NCBI RefSeq assembly: GCF_000021325.1
Contig: NC_011365.1
Location: forward strand, 1,800,001-1,864,000
Source of the DNA: Gluconacetobacter diazotrophicus PA1 5
GTDB lineage: Bacteria > Pseudomonadota > Alphaproteobacteria > Acetobacterales > Acetobacteraceae
Direction of reading: 5' to 3'
Length of the DNA: 64,000 bases
In this document: one piece after another, positions 4,829-54,679 of the stretch
Layout: every line of letters begins with the position of its first letter
Numbering within the stretch: position 1 is the stretch's first letter
Program-made: the position numbers and the translations under genes
The notes under the pieces: generated by a model
The model's input: only the letters and a program-made list of their open reading frames with translations
Told to the model about the DNA's origin: nothing
The model's database searches: none

Positions 4829-5356
4829 ATGCCAAAGATCCTGAAGACGACCCGCAAGAGCGCCGAGACCAAGGCCGTGGACGACAAGGCCGCCGGCAAG
4901 AAAACCGTCAGCAAGAAGACCGTTGCCAAGAAGGTCGGTGCCAAGAAGACGGTTGCCAAGAAAGCCGTCGGCAAGAAAGTCGCGACGACCGCCCCCCTGC
5001 CCCCCGCCGTCCCTCCGGCAGCGACGGCCGAGGTGCTGGACCGCCTGTTCGACGTCGTGACCTCCCGCAAGGGCACCAACCCGTCGATCAGCCATTCGGC
5101 GCGGCTGCTGGCGCGGGGCCGGCGCAAGATCGCCCAGAAATTCGGCGAGGAAGCGGTCGAGTGCCTGATCGAGGCGGTCGCCGGCAACACCGGCGAGTTG
5201 GTGGGCGAAAGCGCGGACGTGCTGTACCACCTGATCGTCATGTGGGTGGATGCCGGCGTTCACCCGGCGGAGGTGTGGGCCGAACTGCACCGCCGCGAGG
5301 GCACCAGCGGCATCGCCGAAAAGGCCGCCCGCCCCCACGACCCGCTGGCGGAATAA
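4829..5356 (+). CDS. hisE: Phosphoribosyl-ATP pyrophosphatase HisE with lysine-rich N-terminal tail
   Basis: Residues from about 65 to the end form HisE, which removes pyrophosphate from PR-ATP in the second step of histidine synthesis: [34 protein letters not shown] and [13 protein letters not shown] carry the acidic metal ligands EEA-E and E-D of the MazG-like fold. Ahead of it is a tail of roughly 60 residues built from KKTVAKK-type repeats and a Pro/Ala linker, unusual for HisE (normally near 100-110 residues). ATGs at 4826 and 4829 are tandem; the second has better spacing from GAGGG. The tail resembles histone H1-like bacterial tails and that of TopA in this window. Confidence 0.93.
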
Positions 5357-5790: not shown

Positions 5791-8139
5791 ATGGATATCT
5801 TCGCTCATTCGCTCCCTGACGACCCCTCGACAGAACGATGGGAAACGTTGCGCGCGCATTCGCTGCGTGTCGCGGCCCTGGCCGAGCAATTCGCCGCCGT
5901 GTTCGGCGCCGCGCACAAGGGCCGGGCGCTGGGGTTGCTGCATGATATCGGGAAATGTTCGGCGGCCTACCAAGACTATATTCGTAAGCCCGGGCCGTGC
6001 CACGGACCTGACCACAGCACGGCGGGCGCCCGCGCCGTGGTCGCGTCCTATGGACCGCTAGGACGGCTGCTGGCCTTTGCCATCGCGGGGCACCATTCCG
6101 GCCTGATGGACGGGTCGGGCCATGACGGCCCCGGACGGTCGCTGAACGAACGCCTGGACGAGCAGGCTTATGCCGTTCCGGCCTCGGACAATTGGCCGGA
6201 CTATTGTCCCGCGCGGCCGACCCTGCAGGATCTGGTGGACGAGTCGCCGCCGGTCGCCAGCACGGATTATCCGGGATTCGCGACCTCGTTTTTCGTCCGC
6301 ATGCTGTTTTCCTGCCTGACGGATGCCGATTTCATCGCCACCGAAGGATATTACGCGGAATCGGCAGGATTGCCGCCACCCGCGCGCGGCGGAACGATCA
6401 CCCAGGCCCATCTGGATGCCATCCGACGGTTCATGAAGACACGGCGGCGGGACGATACACCGCTGAACCGGCTGCGCAGCCGGATTCTGGACCATGCGAT
6501 CGGCAAGGCCGCCCTCGGACCCGGCCTGTTCACGATGACGGTCCCTACAGGCGGGGGCAAGACGCTCGCCTCGCTCAGCTTTGCACTGGACCATGCGGTG
6601 CGGCATGGGCTGCGCCGCGTGATCTATGTGATCCCGTTCACATCGATCATCGAGCAGACGGCGACGGTGTTTCGCGAGGCTCTGGGTACGACGGACGGCA
6701 TCCTGGAACATCATTCGAATTTCGACTGGGACCGACGCGCGCCGGCCGGCGAGAACGACGAGGAAGCCGAAGGCGCTGACGGCCTGGCGAAATTACGGCG
6801 CGACGCGGAAAACTGGGACGCACCCATTATCGTCACGACCAGCGTGCAGTTCTTCGAATCGCTGTTCGCGGCACGGGGCAGCCAGGCCCGCAAGTTGCAC
6901 AACATTGCAGGCAGCGTGATCATCCTGGACGAGGTGCAGACGCTGCCGCTGCATCTACTGCGCCCCTGCCTCGCGGTCCTGGACGAACTGGCCCGCAATT
7001 ACGGCGTGAGCATCGTGCTGTGTACCGCCACGCAATCCGCCCTGCGGCAGATCGACGACGCGTTGCCGCCTGGGCGAAAGGGACGCCGGGCGGGGCTGGA
7101 TATCCAAGACACGCACGAACTAGCCCCCGAACCCGCAGCGCTCTATGACGCGCTGCGCCGCGCTACCGTCACCTGGCGCAAGGAACCGGTATCCGACGGC
7201 GAGATCGCCGCGCGTTTCGCGGTGCGCGAACAGATGCTGTGCATCGTCAATACCAGGGCGCACGCGCATGATCTGTTCACCGCCATTGCCGATCAGGACG
7301 GTGCACGGCACCTGACAACGCTGATGTGCCCGCTCCATCGGCGCGCCACCCTGGTAGCCATACGCCAGGATCTGAAAAACGGACGGCCTGTCCGGCTGGT
7401 CTCCACCAGCCTGATCGAAGCCGGTGTCGATGTCGATTTCCCCGAGGTCTGGCGGGAAGCCACCGGATTATCCTCGATCACGCAGGCCGCCGGACGATGC
7501 AATCGCGAGGGCCGCCTGGACGAGCCAGGCCCGGTGGTGGTGTTCGAGACGCCTGACCCTGCCGACCCCACGCAGCCATGGCTTGTGCGTGCCATGCGCC
7601 CCTTCTGGCAGGCCACGCGTCCGATCCTGCGCCAGGGACTGGACCCGCTGAGCCTGGAAGCCATTCATGCCTATTTCCGCGAACTGTATTTCCAACATAG
7701 CCATGACACGCACGGACACGACGGCCTGGACGCCGCGCGGATCGGCACCGTGCGCTACGCAATCCTGGAGGCCATCGCGCAATCGGGTGCCGGCCACACC
7801 TATCCGTATGCCACCATTGCACGGGCCTTCCGCATGATCGACACGGTCATGGAGTCCGTCATCATCCCGTGGGACGAAACCGTACGGCAAATGCTGCATG
7901 CCCTTGACCACGCACCCGTCCCACCGGCCGGATTCATGCGGCGCCTGCAACAATACTGCGTGCCGGTCCCCGCACCCATCCGGCTGAAATTGCTGGCCGC
8001 CGGCGCCCTGCGCACCGTCAAGCCCGAAGCGTATGGCGACCGGTTCGTCTACCTGGAATCAATGGATCTTTACGATGCCCGCCGGGGTCTGAAACTGGAT
8101 GATCCCACGTTCCGCCATGCGGAAAGCAATGTGTGGTAG
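5791..8139 (+). CDS. cas3: Cas3 HD nuclease-helicase (type I-C)
   Basis: A 782-residue single-chain Cas3, the effector recruited by Cascade to nick and shred target DNA. The N-terminal HD nuclease has HDIGK at residues 51-55 and AGHHSG further on. The helicase follows: TVPTGGGKTL (Walker A) near 250-260, ILDEVQTLP (motif II) near 380, LCTATQSAL (motif III), and VSTSLIEAGVDVDFP and ITQAAGRCNREG (motifs V and VI). GGGAGG precedes the ATG by about 10 nt. It sits apart from the other cas genes, 30 nt after the HIT gene, and is followed by a hairpin and the reverse-strand crRNA-like unit. All motifs look intact. Confidence 0.96.
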   Translation: MDIFAHSLPDDPSTERWETLRAHSLRVAALAEQFAAVFGAAHKGRALGLLHDIGKCSAAYQDYIRKPGPCHGPDHSTAGARAVVASYGPLGRLLAFAIAGHHSGLMDGSGHDGPGRSLNERLDEQAYAVPASDNWPDYCPARPTLQDLVDESPPVASTDYPGFATSFFVRMLFSCLTDADFIATEGYYAESAGLPPPARGGTITQAHLDAIRRFMKTRRRDDTPLNRLRSRILDHAIGKAALGPGLFTMTVPTGGGKTLASLSFALDHAVRHGLRRVIYVIPFTSIIEQTATVFREALGTTDGILEHHSNFDWDRRAPAGENDEEAEGADGLAKLRRDAENWDAPIIVTTSVQFFESLFAARGSQARKLHNIAGSVIILDEVQTLPLHLLRPCLAVLDELARNYGVSIVLCTATQSALRQIDDALPPGRKGRRAGLDIQDTHELAPEPAALYDALRRATVTWRKEPVSDGEIAARFAVREQMLCIVNTRAHAHDLFTAIADQDGARHLTTLMCPLHRRATLVAIRQDLKNGRPVRLVSTSLIEAGVDVDFPEVWREATGLSSITQAAGRCNREGRLDEPGPVVVFETPDPADPTQPWLVRAMRPFWQATRPILRQGLDPLSLEAIHAYFRELYFQHSHDTHGHDGLDAARIGTVRYAILEAIAQSGAGHTYPYATIARAFRMIDTVMESVIIPWDETVRQMLHALDHAPVPPAGFMRRLQQYCVPVPAPIRLKLLAAGALRTVKPEAYGDRFVYLESMDLYDARRGLKLDDPTFRHAESNVW

Positions 8140-8142
8140 ACA

Positions 8143-8175
8143 GCGGTTTCCGGCCGGGACACGGCCGGAAACCGC
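8143..8175. terminator. Perfect 14-bp hairpin between cas3 and the crRNA-like unit
   Basis: GCGGTTTCCGGCCG pairs completely with its inverse around a 5-nt loop, starting 4 nt after the cas3 stop. Neither strand has a T-run after it, so it may act as an RNA end or processing signal rather than a textbook intrinsic terminator. It serves cas3 on one strand and the crRNA-like unit on the other. Confidence 0.6.
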
Positions 8176-8238
8176 CCGATATCCGCATCCTGCGCATCAC
8201 AGAAAACGTTTCAATCCACGCTTCGGGTAAAGCGACCA
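8143..8238 (-). ncRNA. Stand-alone crRNA-like RNA: one diverged repeat, one spacer, one hairpin
   Basis: Read on the minus strand. From 8236 to 8208 lies a single 29-nt CRISPR repeat variant. It starts GTCGCT and ends AGCGTGGATTGAAAC exactly as the array repeats do, but the middle is shorter. The stem survives as CGCTT/AAGCG, a compensatory C-G to T-A exchange relative to CGCTC/GAGCG, so Cas5 recognition and the 11-nt handle TGGATTGAAAC should be kept. About 32 nt of spacer-like sequence follow (8207-8176), then a perfect 14-bp hairpin with loop TGTCC (8175-8143) that could stop transcription or define the 3' end, although no T-run follows. The spacer begins GTTTTCTGTGAT, matching 11/12 to 9043-9054 upstream of cas5. 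Expression is inferred from the promoter. Confidence 0.75.
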
Positions 8239-8244
8239 ATGATA

Positions 8245-8274
8245 ATTTTACCTTGTGCGGATCGTCCGGGTCAA
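8245..8274 (-). promoter_or_regulatory. Sigma70-type promoter of the crRNA-like unit
   Basis: On the minus strand TTGACC (8274-8269) and TAAAAT (8250-8245) are separated by 18 bp. Transcription would start near 8238, one or two bases before the orphan repeat. This spacing suggests the promoter belongs to the repeat rather than to cas3 or vapC, which lie in the wrong place or orientation. Confidence 0.65.
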
Positions 8275-8299
8275 AGGTCTGATCGCGTGACGATACCCG

Positions 8300-8710
8300 T
8301 CAGGCAACATTCGTGAACCAGTCTTCGGCCCTGAGCCCCGCAACGCGCCTGAACTCGCCCAGATTGCCTGTGACGACCACCAACCCCCGGCTGCGGGCGT
8401 GTCCCGCGATCATCAGATCATAGGGGCCGATCACGCAGCCCCTGCGTTCGAGATCGTCCCGGATCTCGGCCGTATGGGACGCCGCCGCGCTGTCGAACGG
8501 CAGGACATTCAGTCTGTCCGCGAAATGCTCGACCTCTCGCCTGACACGCACGGGATCGGACGACCGCTCCGCCCCATAGAGCAGTTCGTATAGCACGACA
8601 TCGGAGATACAGAGGTCTTCGGCGTAGGCATTGAACCGCGCCCGCAGGCCCTGCGGCCGGTCCCGCAACACACGGATGCACAAGTTGGTGTCCAGCAGAA
8701 AGCGCAGCAT
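8300..8710 (-). CDS. vapC: VapC-type PIN-domain toxin
   Basis: A 136-residue PIN-domain ribonuclease. The first acidic residue is in MLRFLLDTNLCIRVL, the second in YELLYGAE (Glu), and later acidic ligands are in GPYDLMIAGHARSRG and GNLGEFRRV. These are the four metal-binding positions of VapC toxins, which cleave tRNA or rRNA. It overlaps the antitoxin gene by one base (TGATG), the normal vapBC coupling. The pair lies inside the cas locus in reverse orientation, between cas3 and cas5. Confidence 0.9.
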   Translation of the reverse strand: MLRFLLDTNLCIRVLRDRPQGLRARFNAYAEDLCISDVVLYELLYGAERSSDPVRVRREVEHFADRLNVLPFDSAAASHTAEIRDDLERRGCVIGPYDLMIAGHARSRGLVVVTGNLGEFRRVAGLRAEDWFTNVA

Positions 8711-8934
8711 CAGAAGCGCTCCCGTTCCTGCATCGCCGGCTGGCTGCGTTCCCCCAGGTCCAGGCCGGGAGCGGCGAAAAAATCGTCCCAGGCTGCTTCA
8801 GCGGGCGCGATAATCCGACGCGGGCCTTCGGGAACAATCACCACCTCCCGCACGCCTTCTCCAAAGGCCACGGCCTTCGGCAGGCGAACCGCCTGGGAAC
8901 GATTGGAGAGAAACAAGGTCGTGCGCGTGAGCAT
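8710..8934 (-). CDS. vapB: VapB-type antitoxin
   Basis: A 74-residue protein. The N-terminal part, TTLFLSNRSQAVRLPKAVAF, is the swapped-hairpin (AbrB/MazE-like) DNA-binding domain of VapB antitoxins; the acidic/aromatic tail EAAWDDFFAAPGLDL would wrap the VapC toxin. AGGAGG lies at 8943-8948 with 8-nt spacing. It is expected to repress its own promoter through the palindrome just upstream. Confidence 0.88.
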   Translation of the reverse strand: MLTRTTLFLSNRSQAVRLPKAVAFGEGVREVVIVPEGPRRIIAPAEAAWDDFFAAPGLDLGERSQPAMQERERF

Positions 8935-8946
8935 CGGCTTCGCCTC

Positions 8947-8966
8947 CTGTATGGATATACATACAG
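8947..8966. promoter_or_regulatory. Inverted repeat upstream of vapB, likely VapBC operator
   Basis: CTGTATG and CATACAG are perfect inverse copies separated by 6 bp. The site begins 13 nt upstream of vapB and touches its ribosome binding site, a usual place for a toxin-antitoxin autoregulatory operator. Binding by VapB is inferred. Confidence 0.55.
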
Positions 8967-9039
8967 CATATCCAATTCAACCGCGTAGCATATTCTTTAG
9001 CCCGCTCGGTCCTTCGAACCCCACCATCATAATATCATT

Positions 9040-9080
9040 TTCGTTTTATGTGATCGTCATGATGGGATATCATGACGATC
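9040..9080 (+). promoter_or_regulatory. Predicted target of the crRNA-like RNA and palindrome in the cas5 promoter region
   Basis: TTC at 9040-9042 (the type I-C PAM) is followed by GTTTTATGTGAT, which matches the first 12 nt of the spacer at 8207-8196 except for position 6. Weaker similarity continues to about 9071 (GATG and GGATATC shared, one gap). The segment overlaps a perfect 12-bp palindrome, GATCGTCATGAT (9052-9063) and its inverse (9069-9080), around GGGAT. A possible core promoter, TTTATG (9045-9050) and TATCAT (9068-9073) 17 bp apart, lies within it. It is 108 nt upstream of cas5 and 106 nt from vapB. The promoter assignment is tentative; the match itself is read directly. Confidence 0.7.
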
Positions 9081-9187
9081 TTCACAAAGTTGTGCTTTGC
9101 GCCTCTCCGACCTGGAGAAGATAATCCCAAGTAACGCCTGTGGAATTGTCATAAGACAAACACCAGAACCAGACGGAGCCAGTCCTG

Positions 9188-9859
9188 ATGGGTATTCGAC
9201 TCCATGTCTGGGGTGAACGCGCATGCTTTACGCGACCCGAACTGAAATCGGAGCGTGTGTCGTATGATGTCCTGACGCCATCGGCGGCGCGGGGCATCGT
9301 GGAAGCCATCCACTGGAAGCCGGCCATTCGCTGGCATATCGACCGCATCCATGTCCTGAAGCCGATCCGCTTCCAGTCGATCCGCCGGAACGAGGTCGGG
9401 GCCAAGGTGAGCGCCGTCCTCGCGGCCCGGGCCATGACTGCTGGCCACACATCGGGCCTGGGCTTGGCGGTCGACGAGAATCGCCAGCAGCGGGCGGCGA
9501 CGATCCTGGTCGACGTAGCCTATGTCATCGAGGCGCACTTCACCCTGACGGCACGGGCCGGCGCGGGCGACACGGCGGCGAAGCATCTGAGCATGTTCAA
9601 CCGGCGGGCCACGCAGGGGCAATGTTTCCATCGCCCTTGCCTGGGAACGCGGGAATTTCCGGCGGATTTCGCATTGATTACCGAGGAAGCTCCCCTGCCC
9701 GCCTCGGCGTTTCCGCCCGATCTGCAAGCGGTCGATCTGGGCTGGATGCTGCACGACATCGATTTCGCGGACCAGCGCACGCCGCGCTTTTTCCGTGCCT
9801 GCATCGAGAGCGGCGTGATTGCGGTGCCGGCGGCCGACAGTCCGGACCTGATCGCATGA
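9188..9859 (+). CDS. cas5c: Cas5 (type I-C, pre-crRNA processing subunit)
   Basis: A 223-residue RAMP protein. In type I-C systems, which lack Cas6, Cas5 cuts the repeat at the base of its stem and caps the 5' handle in Cascade. The N-terminal WGERACFTRPELKSERVSYDVLTPSAARGIVEAIHWKP carries the motif of Cas5c, including the Tyr-Asp-x-x-Thr-Pro-Ser-Ala-Ala-Arg turn and the IHWKP stretch. GGAG lies 9 nt before the ATG. It opens the operon cas5-cas8c-cas7-cas4-cas1-cas2 and overlaps cas8c by 4 nt. Confidence 0.95.
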   Translation: MGIRLHVWGERACFTRPELKSERVSYDVLTPSAARGIVEAIHWKPAIRWHIDRIHVLKPIRFQSIRRNEVGAKVSAVLAARAMTAGHTSGLGLAVDENRQQRAATILVDVAYVIEAHFTLTARAGAGDTAAKHLSMFNRRATQGQCFHRPCLGTREFPADFALITEEAPLPASAFPPDLQAVDLGWMLHDIDFADQRTPRFFRACIESGVIAVPAADSPDLIA

Positions 9860-11679
9860 CGATCCAGAAGCGTCCGGGCCCACTGGAAGCACTGGTCGAT
9901 TTCTACGCCCGCATGGACGATGCCGAGGACCCTGGCTGGGGGCGGGAGAAATTCGGCTGGTGCGTCGTGATCGACGCGGAAGGCCAGCCGATCGATGTGC
10001 TGGACCAACACGACCATGACGGCAGGAAGCCCCGTCCCCGGCTGTTCCTTGTCCCGGCTGCCGTCAAGCGCGCGTCCGGCATCGCGCCGAATTTCCTGTG
10101 GGACAAGACATCCTACGTGCTGGGCCGCACCGCCGGCGCCGGCAAGCGCACCGTGCAGGAGCATGAAGCCTTCGTCGCGTTCAACCTGAAACGGATGGCG
10201 GAAACATCCGACGTGGGCCTGGTCGCATTCCGGCGGTTCCTGGAACGCTGGACGCCCGCGCAGTTCGACACGCCCCTCTTCCCGGCGGAGATGCTGGACG
10301 CGAACATCATGTTCCGCCTGGAGGGCGACAGGGACTACCTTCATCGCCGCCCGGCGGCGCAGCGACTGGTCGAGGCGCCGCTCGATAACGGGCATGAACG
10401 GCAATCATTCTGTCTGGTGACGGGGCAGCGGGCGGCGCCGGCCCGGCTACATCCGACGATCAAAGGCGTGGAAGGCGCGCAGACGTCCGGGGCCAGCCTG
10501 GTATCGTTCAATCTCGATGCATTCTGTTCCTATGGCCGGAAGCAAGGCGACAACGCTCCGACATCGCAGGCGGCCGCCTTTCGTTATGGGGCCGCGCTGA
10601 ACCGGTTGCTGACACGCGACGGGCCCAACCGGCTCCGGCGGCCGATCGGGGACGCGACCGTGATATTCTGGGCGGATGGCAGCGATGCGCAGGTCGCGAA
10701 AAAGGCCGATGCGTGGATTCAGGAGGCGATTGCGCCGAACCTGCTGGACGCGGATGCCGCGCGCCGGATCGGCGAGGAACTGACCGCGCTGGCCCAAGGC
10801 CGCCCCCTGTCGCAATTACGGCCGGACATCCCACCCGATACACGTTTTTACGTTATGGGCCTGTCGCCCAACGCAGCACGCCTGTCGGTGCGTTTCTGGT
10901 TGTCGGATAGCCTGGATGTCTTCGCCCATCGCCTGGCGGAGCATTACGAGGACACCCGCATTGCGCCATCCCCGTGGTCGCGTCCACCCACCGTCAACCT
11001 GCTGCTGGCGCGCACCGTGGCGGCACAGGACAAATACGACAACATTCCGCCACTACTGGCCGGGGAAATCATGCGTGCGATCCTGACCGGCACGCCCTAT
11101 CCGCGAACGTGGCTGGCCGCGATCCTGATGCGGCTGCGCGCGGGCGACGATCCGGCAACGGGCTGGCATGCCGCCGCCCTGCGTGCCGTGCTGCAGCGCC
11201 GGCGACGCCTGACGAAAAATGCTTCGGACAATGGAGATGTTCCTGTGAGCCTCAATCGGGACTACCCCAGTATCGGGTATCAACTCGGCCGCCTCTTCGC
11301 CGTTTACGAACTGGCGCAGCGGGCTGCGCTGGGCATAGGCGTGAAAGCGACAATGCGGGATAAATACTTCGCCGCGGCCTCGGCCGCACCGGCCAGTATT
11401 TTTCCCGTCATCATCCGCAACAGCCAGAACCACCTGTCGAACGTCCGCAAGCGGACCCCCGGTTGGGCCGGCGTGATCGAACGCGAACTGGACGAGATTT
11501 TCGGACGCATCACGCCGTCCGGACCCCACGTGCTGCCCCGCGCATTATCCCTGGAACATCAGGGAGAATTCGCCATCGGCTATTACCACCAGCGTCGGGA
11601 GAGGATTGGCGGCCGGATGGCCGAGACCGCCTTGCAGGACGACGAGCAGGACATCGAGGACAATGCAACCCATGACTGA
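9856..11679 (+). CDS. cas8c: Cas8c large subunit of Cascade (Csd1)
   Basis: A 607-residue Csd1-family protein, the subunit that reads the PAM and recruits Cas3 in type I-C Cascade. Recognisable family stretches are PRLFLVPAAVKRASGIAPNFLWDKTSYVLG near 60-90, FCLVTGQRAAPARLHPTIKGVEGAQTSGASLVSFN near 180-215, GDATVIFWAD, LSPNAARLSVRFW near 335, and SIGYQLGRLFAVYELAQRAALG near 470. The start overlaps the cas5 stop (ATGA), and its end overlaps the cas7 start. Length is normal for the family. Confidence 0.95.
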   Translation: MTIQKRPGPLEALVDFYARMDDAEDPGWGREKFGWCVVIDAEGQPIDVLDQHDHDGRKPRPRLFLVPAAVKRASGIAPNFLWDKTSYVLGRTAGAGKRTVQEHEAFVAFNLKRMAETSDVGLVAFRRFLERWTPAQFDTPLFPAEMLDANIMFRLEGDRDYLHRRPAAQRLVEAPLDNGHERQSFCLVTGQRAAPARLHPTIKGVEGAQTSGASLVSFNLDAFCSYGRKQGDNAPTSQAAAFRYGAALNRLLTRDGPNRLRRPIGDATVIFWADGSDAQVAKKADAWIQEAIAPNLLDADAARRIGEELTALAQGRPLSQLRPDIPPDTRFYVMGLSPNAARLSVRFWLSDSLDVFAHRLAEHYEDTRIAPSPWSRPPTVNLLLARTVAAQDKYDNIPPLLAGEIMRAILTGTPYPRTWLAAILMRLRAGDDPATGWHAAALRAVLQRRRRLTKNASDNGDVPVSLNRDYPSIGYQLGRLFAVYELAQRAALGIGVKATMRDKYFAAASAAPASIFPVIIRNSQNHLSNVRKRTPGWAGVIERELDEIFGRITPSGPHVLPRALSLEHQGEFAIGYYHQRRERIGGRMAETALQDDEQDIEDNATHD

Positions 11680-14791: not shown

Positions 14792-17700
14792 GTCGCTCCC
14801 TGTGCGGGAGCGTGGATTGAAACAAGCGCGACTCGCCAATCGGTGAAGCGCGCTGCGGGTCGCTCCCTGTGCGGGAGCGTGGATTGAAACCGGATGGCAT
14901 CGGGGTGAAATGCGCGAACAGGTCGTCGCTCCCTGTGCGGGAGCGTGGATTGAAACGTCAGCATGCTCATAAAATCCGCCAGATTGGGCGTCGCTCCCTG
15001 TGCGGGAGCGTGGATTGAAACTCGCATCTGCTGACCTGATCAAGCGCAACAAGGTGTCGCTCCCTGTGCGGGAGCGTGGATTGAAACCGGTCAGGACGAT
15101 GGGCAGATCCGCAGACTGTCCGTCGCTCCCTGTGCGGGAGCGTGGATTGAAACCGATATGGCATCGGAATGGGGCGTCAGCATTCTGGTCGCTCCCTGTG
15201 CGGGAGCGTGGATTGAAACGCCAGCCGCCCGTCCGGACTGGGAGCGGCTGGATGTCGCTCCCTGTGCGGGAGCGTGGATTGAAACTACGAGACCGTGACG
15301 GCGGCGGTGGCTGACTTTGGTCGCTCCCTGTGCGGGAGCGTGGATTGAAACATCCCGGGCGAGCCGCTGCCCGTCATGGACAAGAGTCGCTCCCTGTGCG
15401 GGAGCGTGGATTGAAACCCCGGCCAGCGCAAAATATCCCGCGCCGTCCACGGTCGCTCCCTGTGCGGGAGCGTGGATTGAAACCGATCCTCCCGTGGCAC
15501 CGGGGGTTCCCCCAAGGAGTCGCTCCCTGTGCGGGAGCGTGGATTGAAACGCCCCCCAAAGGTTGGGTTGATCGTTCGGGAAAGGTCGCTCCCTGTGCGG
15601 GAGCGTGGATTGAAACCCGATTCCGGTCCCGAGTTGAATGCGCGCGAACTCGTCGCTCCCTGTGCGGGAGCGTGGATTGAAACTGTTGCAGCAGGCCCCA
15701 CGCAAGGGATGGCCGATGTCGCTCCCTGTGCGGGAGCGTGGATTGAAACTCCCGGGCGAGCCGCTGCCCATCATGGACAAGAAGGTCGCTCCCTGTGCGG
15801 GAGCGTGGATTGAAACACGGAATTTTACGCTCCGACATCATCTAACCCGCGTCGCTCCCTGTGCGGGAGCGTGGATTGAAACAGGAGGGTGATATCGAAC
15901 GAATATCCGATCGGAAGTCGCTCCCTGTGCGGGAGCGTGGATTGAAACATCAACACGCCGGCGCCGATCGAGATCATCTCCCCGTCGCTCCCTGTGCGGG
16001 AGCGTGGATTGAAACCAGCGGTTCCGTTCGGAATTCGAGGAATTCCAGCGTCGCTCCCTGTGCGGGAGCGTGGATTGAAACTTTACCGAAACCGTTATCT
16101 CGGCCGGAGCGCCGAACGTCGCTCCCTGTGCGGGAGCGTGGATTGAAACATGCGCGAGGCTGCCGCTTTCATCCGCGCTAACGTCGCTCCCTGTGCGGGA
16201 GCGTGGATTGAAACTGCGCACGCTGGCCATCGGCGCGTCCTGGTATAAGTCGCTCCCTGTGCGGGAGCGTGGATTGAAACTGGGTGACGTAGATATACGA
16301 CCCGTCGCTAACCTGTCGCTCCCTGTGCGGGAGCGTGGATTGAAACGTGTAGATCATCCCTGGCGTAAGAACGGTGAAGCGTCGCTCCCTGTGCGGGAGC
16401 GTGGATTGAAACAGGGGCGGCACAGCGCCACCCCTAACGCCTCTGGTCGCTCCCTGTGCGGGAGCGTGGATTGAAACGTATGGGGCGGGCGCCCACGAAC
16501 CGGACGACGGAAGTCGCTCCCTGTGCGGGAGCGTGGATTGAAACCCTGATGGTTGATGGGGCCGACCGTTGTCATGTTGTCGCTCCCTGTGCGGGAGCGT
16601 GGATTGAAACTGGAGCGCCGCCATTTCGCCATGTCGGTCCATGGGTCGCTCCCTGTGCGGGAGCGTGGATTGAAACGGGATGTTGTCGAGGGTGAGGAAT
16701 CGCGGGCATGTCGCTCCCTGTGCGGGAGCGTGGATTGAAACTTTGGAGCGGTCAGGTTGGCCGACACCAACCAAAGTCGCTCCCTGTGCGGGAGCGTGGA
16801 TTGAAACGCGATCACGTTGCGGATCGACCGTTCGGAACGACGTCGCTCCCTGTGCGGGAGCGTGGATTGAAACCTCGGGATGTTGATTGCCCGGTCAACA
16901 TTTGCAGGGTCGCTCCCTGTGCGGGAGCGTGGATTGAAACCATGGGGATCAGGCCGAGTAAAACAGAACGTCAAGTCGCTCCCTGTGCGGGAGCGTGGAT
17001 TGAAACGCCGCAAGCGCGAAAACATGGACCAGATCAAGGCGTCGCTCCCTGTGCGGGAGCGTGGATTGAAACCCGAGGTCCAGCAGCGCCTGCTCGGCGT
17101 CGTCCAGTCGCTCCCTGTGCGGGAGCGTGGATTGAAACCGGTAACTCTCGGGATAGCGGTCCTGAATGGTGGGTCGCTCCCTGTGCGGGAGCGTGGATTG
17201 AAACCGCCTTTGGATGCGAACTCGTCGGCGATCAGGCGGTCGCTCCCTGTGCGGGAGCGTGGATTGAAACCGTCAGGAAGTCGGTGCGCCCGCTCTCGAT
17301 CGGGGGTCGCTCCCTGTGCGGGAGCGTGGATTGAAACACGGCCAAGCGGATCGGTTGGAGACGTGGCGCGCGTCGCTCCCTGTGCGGGAGCGTGGATTGA
17401 AACCGGTTCGTCCAGCAGCGCACCATGCAGAGCGGGATGTCGCTCCCTGTGCGGGAGCGTGGATTGAAACATCTCATCCGCGACCCGCTCCAGCCCTTCC
17501 GCCAGGTCGCTCCCTGTGCGGGAGCGTGGATTGAAACAGGCGCAGGTCAGCCCGGTAGCCGGTGATGAGGGTCGCTCCCTGTGCGGGAGCGTGGATTGAA
17601 ACTCGGGCGACGGCGCGCGGGCCGGGTTCTCGGGCGTCGCTCCCTGTGCGGGAGCGTGGATTGAAACCGCACTGGTCGAGGCTTACGGCAAGCTCTCCAA

Positions 17701-17998
17701 GGTCGCTCCCTGTGCGGGAGCGTGGATTGAAACAGGAACAATCACTGCCCGCAATCCAGACAATTCCGGTCGCTCCCTGTGCGGGAGCGTGGATTGAAAC
17801 GTCGATACCCAGCCACTGCGGCATCTCGAAATTGTCGCTCCCTGTGCGGGAGCGTGGATTGAAACCAGAGCGCGGGCATTCTTCGCGAGAGGGGTCTGGT
17901 GTCGCTCCCTGTGCGGGAGCGTGGATTGAAACGGTCGGCTGTCCGGAAACGATCTGTCCAATCCCTGTCGCTCCCTGTGCGGGAGCGTGGATTGAAAC
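14792..17998 (+). CRISPR. Type I-C CRISPR array, leader-proximal part, 49 repeats
   Basis: Forty-nine 32-nt repeats, starting GTCGCTCCCTGTGCGGGAGC and ending GTGGATTGAAAC, with a 7-bp stem CGCTCCC/GGGAGCG. The period is about 66 nt, giving 48 complete spacers of about 33-36 nt. No mismatch was seen among these repeats. The orientation (cas2, leader, array) means the newest spacers are near 14824. Two spacers, 15352-15385 and 15750-15784, cover nearly the same sequence with a 1-nt offset and one difference. The array goes on after an IS3 element that entered the next spacer. Confidence 0.99.
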
Positions 17999-18074
17999 TT
18001 CGACCAGATCATGGCGGGCGGAAGCACTGAAGCGTCCCGGGTTTCGCGGAGGCTCCTATCTGTGAGAAGGAGCT

Positions 18075-18401
18075 ATGATGAACACGATGAGCCAGAGATT
18101 TTCGCCTGAGGTCCGTGAGCGTGCGGTCCGTATGGTTGGGGAGCATCGGGCCGATTACGGGTCGGAATGGGCTGCGATGACATCGATTGCTGCCAAGATC
18201 GGTTGCACGGCGGAGACCTTGCGCCGCTGGTGCCGCGATGAGGCCAGGCGGCGAGCGGGACCGGCGGGGCAAGCTGGTGACGAACGCGTTCGGCTCAAGG
18301 AACTTGAGCGCGAGGTCAAGGAGTTGCGCCGCGCCAACGAGATCCTGCGCAAGGCATCGGCGTATTTTGCGATGGCGGAGCTCGACCGCCGCGGGAAATG
18401 A
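18075..18401 (+). CDS. IS3-family transposase OrfA
   Basis: A 108-residue helix-turn-helix protein: [21 protein letters not shown], then [22 protein letters not shown], and a leucine-zipper-like helix ([21 protein letters not shown]). In IS3 elements OrfA binds the ends and is fused to OrfB by -1 frameshifting; orfB overlaps here by 4 nt. An ATG at 18078 is equally possible. Confidence 0.92.
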
Positions 18402-19306
18402 TGATGGCGTTCATCGACGCCCATCGCGAGGACTTGGGTATCGAGCCGATCTGCCGCGAACTGGCGATTGCCCCATCCTCCTATCACGAACATGCTGTCC
18501 GTCTGGCGGACCCCGCCAGGCGGCCTGCGCGTGCCCGGCGCGACGACGAACTGAAGGACGAGATCAAGCGGGTATATGACGCCAGTTCAAAGCTCTACGG
18601 GACGCGCAAAGTCTGGCATCAGATGCGCCGTGAAGGCATTGAGGTGGCCAAATGCACCGTGGAACGCCTGATGCGTGCCATGGGCCTAGCCGGCATTCGG
18701 CGAGGGAAGAGGACGGTCACGACCATCAGCAATCCCAAGGCTCCGTGCCCGCTGGACAAGGTGAACCGCGCATTCCGCGTGAGCCGGCCGAATGCCCTGT
18801 GGGTGGTCGATTTCACCTACGTCCACACATGGGCCGGCTTCGTCTATGTCGCCTTCGTGATCGACGCCTATGCCCGGCGCATCGTCGGCTGGAAGGTCAG
18901 CACGTCAGCCACCGCGGGCTTCGTGCTGGACGCCCTGGAGTAGGCGATCCATGCCCGCAGGCCCGGACCCGAGGATGGCTTGATCCACCATAGTGACAGG
19001 GGCGTCCAATACCTCGCCATGAATTACACCCAGCGCCTGGCCGAGGCCGATCTGGTACCCTCGGTCGGCAGCGTCGGGGACTCCTATGACAATGCCCTGG
19101 CCGAGACCATCAACGGCCTCTACAAGGCCGAGGTCATCTGGCGGCAGCCTTCCTGGCCGACCGTATCGGCCGTGGAAATGGCAACATTGCGCTGGGTCGA
19201 TTGGTTCAATAACCATCGCCTCTTTGGCCCCATCGGCTATATCCCACCCGCCGAGGCCGAAGCCAACTACTATGCAGCCCTCGAGATCATCGATATGGCT
19301 GCGTGA
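18398..19306 (+). pseudogene. IS3-family transposase OrfB, nonsense mutation
   Basis: The integrase catalytic domain is complete except for one stop. VVDFTYVHT carries the first Asp, [12 protein letters not shown] the second and [14 protein letters not shown] the Glu. At 18941-18943 the codon is TAG, whereas the copy at 53616-54524 has CAG at that point (the reading there runs [16 protein letters not shown]). The break falls between the first and second catalytic residues, so neither half can be active. Confidence 0.92.
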
Positions 19307-19354
19307 CTCAAACCAAATGGCCTCCGGGAAACCCGGGACGCTTCACACGATAAC

Positions 19355-20112
19355 GTCGCTCCCTGTGCGGGAGCGTGGATTGAAACTTAGTTTCATGAGT
19401 TTGGTGAGTTATACGAACTGTCGCTCCCTGTGCGGGAGCGTGGATTGAAACCGTGATGCGTGGGGCACGCGCGAACGACTTGGCCTGTCGCTCCCTGTGC
19501 GGGAGCGTGGATTGAAACAGCCTTCGTCAGCCAGCGGTCACGTGGAGGCGGTGTCGCTCCCTGTGCGGGAGCGTGGATTGAAACCGTCTCAACGTTGGGA
19601 AGCTCTTTTACCGCCATGGTCGCTCCCTGTGCGGGAGCGTGGATTGAAACTCTCATGCGACGTCTCCAAACGGCAGGGTCTGCTGTCGCTCCCTGTGCGG
19701 GAGCGTGGATTGAAACATCGCGCATGGACCGCACCACGGGATTCCGGTCGTCGCTCCCTGTGCGGGAGCGTGGATTGAAACTGGATCTCACGGCCCCGAA
19801 AGCACCCCTGAACTGGTCGCTCCCTGTGCGGGAGCGTGGATTGAAACGGAATGTGAGGGATCGCGATGCGGAATGATTGGTGTCGCTCCCTGTGCGGGAG
19901 CGTGGATTGAAACCGTCACTGTGACGGGCGCTGACACGTTCACGTATCGTCGCTCCCTGTGCGGGAGCGTGGATTGAAACACGAACAGGATGACGCCCAG
20001 GCCGCCGATGCCGAGTCGCTCCCCGTGCGGGAGCGTGGATTGAAACGCCGACCGCGTCGGACAGGAGTCGCAAGGTTGTCGTCGCTCCCCACGCGGAAGC
20101 GGGGATTAAAAC
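19355..20112 (+). CRISPR. Type I-C CRISPR array, leader-distal part, 12 repeats
   Basis: Twelve more repeats on the same 66-nt period, continuing the array after the IS3 element; with the first part this makes 61 repeats and 60 spacers, one of them split. Repeats decay towards the end: the one at 20015-20046 has a single T-to-C change in the loop, and the one at 20081-20112 has several changes, including the 3' end (GGGGATTAAAAC). These are the oldest spacers, and the insertion may cut them off from the leader promoter. Confidence 0.97.
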
Positions 20113-53615: not shown

Positions 53616-54524
53616 TCACGCAGCCATATCGATGATCTCGAGGGCTGCATAGTAGTTGGCTTCGGCCTCGGCGGGTGGGATATAGCCGATGGGGCCAAAG
53701 AGGCGATGGTTATTGAACCAATCGACCCAGCGCAATGTTGCCATTTCCACGGCCGATACGGTCGGCCAGGAAGGCTGCCGCCAGATGACCTCGGCCTTGT
53801 AGAGGCCGTTGATGGTCTCGGCCAGGGCATTGTCATAGGAGTCCCCGACGCTGCCGACCGAGGGTACCAGATCGGCCTCGGCCAGGCGCTGGGTGTAATT
53901 CATGGCGAGGTATTGGACGCCCCTGTCACTATGGTGGATCAAGCCATCCTCGGGTCCGGGCCTGCGGGCATGGATCGCCTGCTCCAGGGCGTCCAGCACG
54001 AAGCCGGCGGTGGCTGACGTGCTGACCTTCCAGCCGACGATGCGCCGGGCATAGGCGTCGATCACGAAGGCGACATAGACGAAGCCGGCCCATGTGTGGA
54101 CGTAGGTGAAATCGACCACCCACAGGGCATTCGGCCGGCTCACGCGGAATGCGCGGTTCACCTTGTCCAGCGGGCACGGAGCCTTGGGATTGCTGATGGT
54201 CGTGACCGTCCTCTTCCCTCGCCGAATGCCGGCTAGGCCCATGGCACGCATCAGGCGTTCCACGGTGCATTTGGCCACCTCAATGCCTTCACGGCGCATC
54301 TGATGCCAGACTTTGCGCGTCCCGTAGAGCTTTGAACTGGCGTCATATACCCGCTTGATCTCGTCCTTCAGTTCGTCGTCGCGCCGGGCACGCGCAGGCC
54401 GCCTGGCGGGGTCCGCCAGACGGACAGCATGTTCGTGATAGGAGGATGGGGCAATCGCCAGTTCGCGGCAGATCGGCTCGATACCCAAGTCCTCGCGATG
54501 GGCGTCGATGAACGCCATCATCAT
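53616..54524 (-). CDS. IS3-family transposase OrfB, uninterrupted
   Basis: A 302-residue frame nearly identical to the damaged OrfB at 18398-19306 but with CAG where that copy has TAG. All three catalytic positions are present ([35 protein letters not shown]). It cannot act as an element by itself: orfA is truncated and the right end is displaced by 2.7 kb of inserted DNA. The stop codon coincides with the TCA flank. Confidence 0.9.
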
Positions 54525-54679
54525 TTCCCGCGGCGGTCGAGCTCCGCCATCGCAAAATACGCCGATGCCTTGCGCAGGATCTCGTTGGCGCGGCGCAACT
54601 CCTTGACCTCGCGCTCAAGTTCCTTGAGCCGAACGCGTTCGTCACCAGCTTGCCCCGCCGGTCCCGCTCGCCGCCTGGC
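54521..54679 (-). pseudogene. IS3-family OrfA fragment
   Basis: The last 52 codons of orfA ([20 protein letters not shown] ... AELDRRGK). Identity to the copy at 18075 stops at 54679, where unrelated sequence of a host gene begins, so the helix-turn-helix part and the left end of the IS are lost. Confidence 0.9.

Follow-up and report, generated by a model that had tools for sequence, protein, structure and literature searches.

The type I-C CRISPR-Cas locus of Gluconacetobacter diazotrophicus PA1 5 raises the question of what a CRISPR guide does when it stands outside the array. The locus lies in a stretch of 64,000 nucleotides of the 3.91 Mb genome, to which we refer in its full length as the window, and comprises cas3, cas5, cas8c, cas7, cas4, cas1, and cas2 together with an array (Table 1). 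In the gap between cas3 and cas5, the minus strand carries vapB, vapC, and then, behind cas3, a degenerate repeat (psi-R), a guide, and a hairpin whose arms are 13 bp long. A reading of the sequence alone had proposed that this orphan spacer matches the cas5 promoter region behind a TTC PAM, and that the system would thereby repress its own cas5-cas2 operon. Our analysis suggests that the CRISPR machinery probably uses the guide not as a weapon but as a gene switch, keeping the toxin-antitoxin pair, and perhaps its own cas genes, repressed. The identity of the controlled gene is less certain than that reading held.

Table 1. Features of the type I-C locus and of the gap between cas3 and cas5, in window positions
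Feature	Position	Strand	Remark
cas3	5791..8139	+	
Hairpin closing the unit where a second repeat is expected	8143..8175	-	13-bp arms GCGGTTTCCGGCC...GGCCGGAAACCGC; fold -33.1
Guide, spacer-like	8176..8207	-	begins GTTTTCTGTGATGCGCAGGATGCGGATATC; 32 nt up to the hairpin
Degenerate CRISPR repeat (psi-R) GGTCGCTTTACCCGAAGCGTGGATTGAAAC	8208..8237	-	6-bp stem and 3' handle TGGATTGAAAC of the array repeat retained
Promoter-like TTGACC-18-TAAAAT directly upstream of psi-R	8245..8274	-	consensus match
vapC, tRNA(fMet)-specific endonuclease toxin	8300..8710	-	passes the cut-off of the VapC model; E 3e-44 against a solved VapC
vapB, antitoxin	8710..8934	-	
Palindrome TGTATGGATATACATACA before vapB	8948..8965		
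Promoter-like ATCACA-17-TATGAT facing vapBC	9026..9054	-	first hexamer inside the guide's seed match
TTC PAM	9040..9042	+	
Target (protospacer, 34 nt assumed)	9043..9076	+	seed 9043-9054 equal to guide 1-12 save for base 6; further on, similarity weaker and gapped
cas5 (type I-C), first gene of the operon across from the target	9188..9859	+	
cas8c	9856..11679	+	
CRISPR array	14792..19980	+	59 exact repeats of 32 nt, the first from 14792 and the last from 19949; insertion sequence inside

The guide unit and its target

The 3' handle of psi-R is identical to the handle of the array repeat, and its 6-bp stem is intact. With handle, stem, TTC PAM, and seed pairing all present, the unit has the makings of a CRISPR-like guide that a type I-C Cascade could use. 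The guide's own DNA is preceded by AAC, not TTC, and the TTGACC-18-TAAAAT site (8274-8245) is likely the unit's own promoter. A hairpin similar to the one that closes the unit was found by blastn at the equivalent place in a sister species (locus L062).

Directly after TTC, the plus strand reads GTTTTATGTGAT at 9043-9054, and the minus-strand guide reads GTTTTCTGTGAT from 8207. Base 6 is the sole difference, and the coordinates given in the sequence-only reading are exact. That reading had also judged a chance match very improbable; indeed, when the gap was dinucleotide-shuffled 20,000 times, TTC followed by an 11/12 match never arose (30 of 20,000 when no PAM was required). PAM and seed together, TTCGTTTTNTGTGA, have a single exact site in the whole genome, at the target (9040-9054), and the next site carries one mismatch; the genome-wide search that the reading had recommended thus returned no better target. 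A perfect phage or plasmid match, which it had named as contrary evidence, did not emerge either: among the matches listed for the phage and plasmid collections (8 of 25 each), none was significant or convincing (lowest E 0.4 and 0.3). Since the guide appears genuine, the PAM is right, the pairing is of the seed type with base 6 free, the similarity goes beyond the seed, and no better target was found in the genome or among the phage and plasmid matches listed, Cascade binding without cutting, as originally proposed, is the natural interpretation. Coincidence has only the short length of the seed in its favor, and we give it a negligible probability in view of the shuffles, the sole exact genomic site, and the recurrence in relatives described below. 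It was rejected by dinucleotide shuffles, by reversed, reverse-complemented, and dealt guides, and by the genome-wide pattern search.

As had been noted from the sequence, the similarity does not end with the seed. It extends through GGATATC with three one-base gaps and two mismatches, giving a local score of 18, which none of 3000 shuffles of the 8935-9187 gap reached (shuffle maximum 17); the post-seed stretch alone is weaker, its score being reached by 21 of 3000 shuffles. Because the similarity continues past the seed, the guide may derive from the target region. The unit could then be an ordinary self-derived spacer in the remnant of a broken array, devoid of a regulatory role, and the score of the whole alignment does look as if the guide came from the target. 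However, the same arrangement recurs with unrelated sequences in 17 modules and with mismatches spaced at six bases, which is not expected of remnants, and we consider this explanation very improbable.

The target sits between divergent genes, vapB (start 8934, minus strand) and cas5 (start 9188, plus strand), at 108 nt from the former start and 145 nt from the latter. By eye, we also observed a perfect 12-bp inverted repeat with a 5-nt loop, GATCGTCATGAT-GGGAT-ATCATGACGATC (9052..9080), which begins in the seed match and ends just past the target; it is possibly an operator for another regulator. A different inverted repeat lies near the equivalent place in L062 (by eye).

Recurrence and layout of the cassette in 82 loci

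We surveyed 82 loci, consisting of the window's first 24 kb and of loci L024-L104. Some are partial contigs, one genome contributes two pieces (L063 and L064), two copies come from a single genome (L037 and L065), and seven loci were added separately, some of them from other phyla; the partial matches G785, G795, and G887 were left out. A first scan collected degenerate repeats outside arrays whose next 12 bases matched a TTC-preceded site at most 1200 bp away on either side. This yielded 18 guide-target pairs in 16 of the 82 loci, and reversed guides yielded 0. Relative to the direction of its unit, the target is upstream in 17 of the 18 pairs; the exception is the second target of L078.

A second scan considered only targets upstream of the unit and covered 114 candidate units with at most one mismatch in the repeat tail, with bases 1-5 and 7-11 as the seed positions. 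All ten positions were matched at 10 sites, and TTC preceded every one of them (eight sites without the near-duplicates L024, of the window, and L063, of L062). Reversed guides gave one such site and reverse-complemented guides three, none with TTC, and guides dealt to other units gave a mean of 1.05 full seed sites, 0.2 with TTC (20 rounds). At a seed match of at least 9/10, TTC was present at 19 of 45 real matches, compared with 0 of 15 for reversed and 0 of 33 for reverse-complemented guides, and with an average of 0.5 of 18.8 for dealt guides.

The second scan gave 44 rows, of which 17 modules were retained. Half of the rows (22) had two repeat-tail mismatches (4 at 9/10, 18 at 8/10) and were left out as noise, because the controls, with all tails counted, yielded 15 and 21 rows at 8/10 and 1 and 1 at 9/10. 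Also left out were L024, L063, the second L073 target, and the 8/10 rows of L044 and of L070 at +15252. L070 was kept among the 17 although it reaches just 8/10, and three of the modules (L059, L060, and L061) share one genus.

Type I effectors flip bases out of pairing every six bases. Across the 17 modules, mismatches fall on base 6 in 12 modules and on base 12 in 14, as compared with base 13 in 3 and base 9 in 5. Bases 12 and 13 took no part in the selection of modules, and chance would place a mismatch there in about 3 of 4. Mismatches at 6 and 12, and not at 13, correspond to the six-base rhythm of Cascade pairing. Of the 17 modules, 14 retain the psi-R hairpin; 300 rounds of shuffling gave 6.4 on average and 12 at most. 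Given the PAM and seed match, the recurrence in relatives, the TTC at full matches, and the six-base rhythm, the unit very probably serves Cascade-guided gene control. As a single case, L061 has mismatches in its first 12 bases at 6 and 12 only.

The cassette occupies the gap between cas3 and cas5 in 14 of the 17 modules; in L026 it is found on the minus strand between cas7 and cas4, and L078 and L101 have it upstream of cas3. Between target and unit, 10 modules, the window with its vapB and vapC included, have a start codon behind a Shine-Dalgarno-like stretch, a count that rises to 12 if the doubtful L061, whose frame merely runs into cas5, and L071 are added. The ORFs in this slot encode arginine/lysine-rich peptides in L034, L073, and L062, and in L081, L088, and L101 the encoded peptides contain a hydrophobic stretch; L038 and L055 have other ORFs, and L041 has an ATG-ATA-ATA-GCG mini-ORF. 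No slot ORF passing the Shine-Dalgarno filter was found in the five remaining modules, L026, L059, L060, L070, and L078, of which L026 encodes a comparable arginine-rich peptide, but with no clear Shine-Dalgarno sequence before it. The distance from target to start is 48-89 nt in the peptide cassettes and 138 nt in L041, the window's 108 nt being that to vapB. The peptides of L034 and L073 are relatives of the L062 peptide (3 and 0 of 2000 shuffles as good), and the L026-L062 pair taken alone is weak (60 of 2000). The arginine/lysine-rich peptides of L034, L073, L062, and L026 share a pattern and are possibly an undescribed toxin family. Kinship of the L038 peptide with the other arginine-rich peptides was not supported, as 1176-1819 of 2000 shuffles scored as well.

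Several modules depart from the common layout. L073 (G1142), oriented as the cas operon, has one guide and, upstream of its unit, two TTC-flanked targets in inverted arrangement at 8008 and 8026, to which a pair of Cascade complexes could bind in close proximity. In L078 (G693), likewise oriented, targets at 5247 and 5392 flank a single unit, one ahead of its repeat and the other about 60 nt downstream, and no toxin ORF was found; by its sequence, this arrangement is of the CreR-like kind discussed below. In L059, L060, and L061, the target stands beside a TTGACG hexamer right before the unit, with scant space for a toxin.

The putatively controlled gene

A sister-species comparison is offered by L062, whose cas8c is 72% identical to the window's, and by the near-identical L063. 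On the minus strand behind cas3, both carry a hairpin, the unit, a gene for a 32-aa peptide, and the target, followed by cas5; vapBC was not found in either. The peptide of L062 is small and arginine/lysine-rich, and its gene occupies the slot that vapBC fills in the window. The end of cas3 and the start of the hairpin are 83% identical to the window's over 53 bases. The L062 guide, CTTCCGTGTGAA, faces CTTCCTTGTGAC behind TTC with mismatches at bases 6 and 12 only, and between the window and L062, guide and target are altered in concert at seed bases 1, 4, and 5 (read by eye). Because the two have changed together, the comparison suggests that their pairing is kept by selection. Target and unit are 176 bases apart in L062 and 823 in the window. 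As the difference of 647 bases is close to the 665 bases at most (8313-8977) over which the window's vapBC is homologous to plasmid copies, vapBC most simply took over the toxin slot.

This homology ends 43 nt upstream of vapB, and the homologues lie on plasmids of Komagataeibacter, Roseomonas, and Acetobacter (among the matches listed, 15 of 50). Inverted repeats resembling TGTATGGATATACATACA precede the plasmid vapB genes (by eye), and the palindrome in the window is a probable VapB operator. Two Komagataeibacter plasmid copies have GGGACA-17-TATACA ahead of the vapB palindrome; at the matching spot, the window by our own reading has TATGCT, with no match to the first hexamer, and vapBC may retain its own promoter at the palindrome. 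A hidden second toxin was not found next to vapBC: in the space from target to unit, no ATG other than those of vapB and vapC follows a Shine-Dalgarno-like stretch. Among the 82 loci, vapBC fills the slot only in the window and in L024 (a vapC-like match in L060 lies elsewhere). We take L024 to be a second assembly of the window's strain and for this reason do not count it as independent.

Promoter-like sites, called at a 9/12 match to the consensus, numbered two in a scan of 8130-9300, where 0.4 were expected: that of the guide unit and one on the vapBC strand that overlaps the target and matches the consensus at just 9 of 12 positions. No plus-strand site that could serve cas5 was found in 8130-9300 at 9/12. 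The target had been placed in the cas5 promoter region, and it does lie upstream of cas5; however, this region is the intergenic stretch between the divergent vapB and cas5, and the promoter-like site in it faces vapBC. Nevertheless, cas5 may be repressed as well, since L062 has a TTGACA that faces cas5 and stands a few bases beyond the distal end of the protospacer.

The best explanation, to which we give an even chance of being correct, is a type I-C cassette resembling CreTA or CrePA, with vapBC in the toxin slot and cas5 possibly co-repressed. The course that we infer, from transcription and processing through Cascade binding and repression to toxicity and the effect of vapBC release, would be as follows. 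A CreA-like guide RNA would be transcribed from its own promoter at 8274-8245; psi-R would serve processing by Cas5c, the hairpin would end the guide RNA, and this RNA would load Cascade. Cascade would bind the target (9040-9076) through seed pairing too short for Cas3 cutting and silence the promoter facing vapBC, and cas5 may be co-repressed, the target lying between divergent genes. vapBC would be freed once Cascade disappeared, was titrated by crRNAs, or was inhibited by an anti-CRISPR. Where the sister species has its small peptide gene, the slot holds a complete operon of a type known from plasmids of acetic acid bacteria, and because this operon carries its own antitoxin, its release need not be toxic like that of CreT. 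Several observations weigh against this explanation: the antitoxin just mentioned, the distance between vapB and target, the promoter that vapBC may have at its palindrome, the promoter-like site with its 9/12 match, the five modules without a slot ORF, the restriction of slot-borne vapBC to a single strain (the window and L024), and the hexamers of L062 and L071. A TTGAC hexamer by the target is on the unit's strand in 10 of the 17 modules and on the opposite strand in those two, a difference that separates the readings weakly because plus-strand modules share the direction of unit and cas genes.

The guide might instead send Cascade to the cas5 promoter only and thus limit cas5-cas2, with vapBC as a passenger. 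Such CreR-like autoregulation is of a published kind (PMC12737573, PMC13131331), and it would fit the target's place upstream of cas5, the L062 hexamer facing cas5, the lack of a convincing toxin ORF between target and unit in L059, L060, L061, and L078, and the two targets that flank the L078 unit. We nonetheless consider it doubtful. No promoter-like site was found on the plus strand of 8130-9300, the L026 cassette lies far from cas5 and its TTGACC and peptide ORF point the same way as the unit, and in all pairs but one the unit, by its own orientation, has its target upstream. Of the proposed self-repression of cas5-cas2, the guide, PAM, and seed stand, but cas5-cas2 as the repressed operon is not established: the position of the targets, vapBC in the slot, and the promoter-like site facing it point to the vapBC side, and in view of the L062 hexamer cas5 may be controlled as well.

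Improbable, in our estimate, is the idea that vapBC displaced an older peptide toxin and left the guide unit and target behind as functionless relics. It would accord with the restriction of vapBC to what we take to be one strain, with its homologues on plasmids of the family, and with the peptide gene of the sister species, but decay would then be expected, whereas the 11/12 seed with its PAM, the promoter-like site, the hairpin, and the handle are all intact. Because the promoter-like site faces vapBC, L062 has its TTGACA, and some modules lack a toxin, we rank control of the vapBC side, with or without cas5, before control of cas5 alone, and the latter before a relic. Returning to control of the vapBC side, we tentatively consider that a single target may act as both guard and feedback switch. 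Cascade would then control vapBC, the replacement of a CreT-like peptide, together with the divergent cas5 operon, within a widespread type I-C family of cassettes with interchangeable toxins.

Known systems and further features of the array

In the papers covered, CreTA has been characterized in archaeal systems and in bacterial types I-F and I-E (PMC8501985, PMC10097628, PMC12055562). The Acinetobacter I-F module lies in the cas3-csy1 gap (PMC10097628) and that of Citrobacter rodentium type I-E, whose toxin must be translated, in the cas3-casA gap (PMC12055562), both in the place corresponding to the window's. Shared with CreTA are a degenerate-repeat guide by the cas genes, a partial seed match behind a PAM in a nearby putative promoter, and a toxin-like gene in the cassette; moreover, the AUA-AUA mini-ORF of L041 is like that of the Haloarcula hubeiense CreT (PMC8501985). 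The window differs in its subtype, I-C, in the complete protein pair in its slot, and in having a single repeat and a hairpin instead of the usual two repeats (PMC8501985). Its toxin ORF and guide are on the same strand, whereas in Acinetobacter and Citrobacter they are opposed (PMC10097628, PMC12055562).

In CrePA, a Cascade-bound guide represses a protein toxin, which is released by anti-CRISPRs (PMC12737573), as we propose for the window. CreP, however, is typically a KilA-N protein acting on FtsZ (PMC12737573), and VapC, unlike CreT or CreP, comes with its antitoxin VapB. CreR likewise uses a degenerate-repeat guide that partially matches a cas promoter region (PMC12737573, PMC13131331) and is described for type I and V-A systems (PMC12737573), more specifically I-B, I-E, and V-A (PMC13131331). 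It is generally uncoupled from a toxin gene (PMC12737573). The window, by contrast, has vapBC in the space from target to unit, and its promoter-like site over the target is oriented toward vapBC. In type II systems, scaRNA and long tracrRNA also repress without cutting through short guide pairing (PMC8730458), but these are Cas9 systems based on tracrRNA. In the literature searched, which for CreR and CrePA consisted of reviews, no such system is described for type I-C and none with a vapBC output, which is no proof of absence. If our interpretation is true, guard or feedback cassettes whose toxins can be exchanged occur in type I-C loci across several branches of the phylum, and this plant-associated bacterium would be a tractable case of an ordinary toxin-antitoxin operon under CRISPR control.

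The array itself showed several features. It is split by an insertion sequence (window about 18028-19345) whose inverted ends are near-identical by eye and which contains an ALIL frameshift pseudoknot at 18359-18473; another ALIL copy with the same score lies on the minus strand at 54449-54563. Two array spacers (15353-15385 and 15750-15782) are 97% identical, as if one protospacer had been acquired twice or one copy had been duplicated and mutated. At its distal end, 20015-20112, the array continues with a one-base variant repeat and a more degenerate repeat, GTCGCTCCCCACGCGGAAGCGGGGATTAAAAC.
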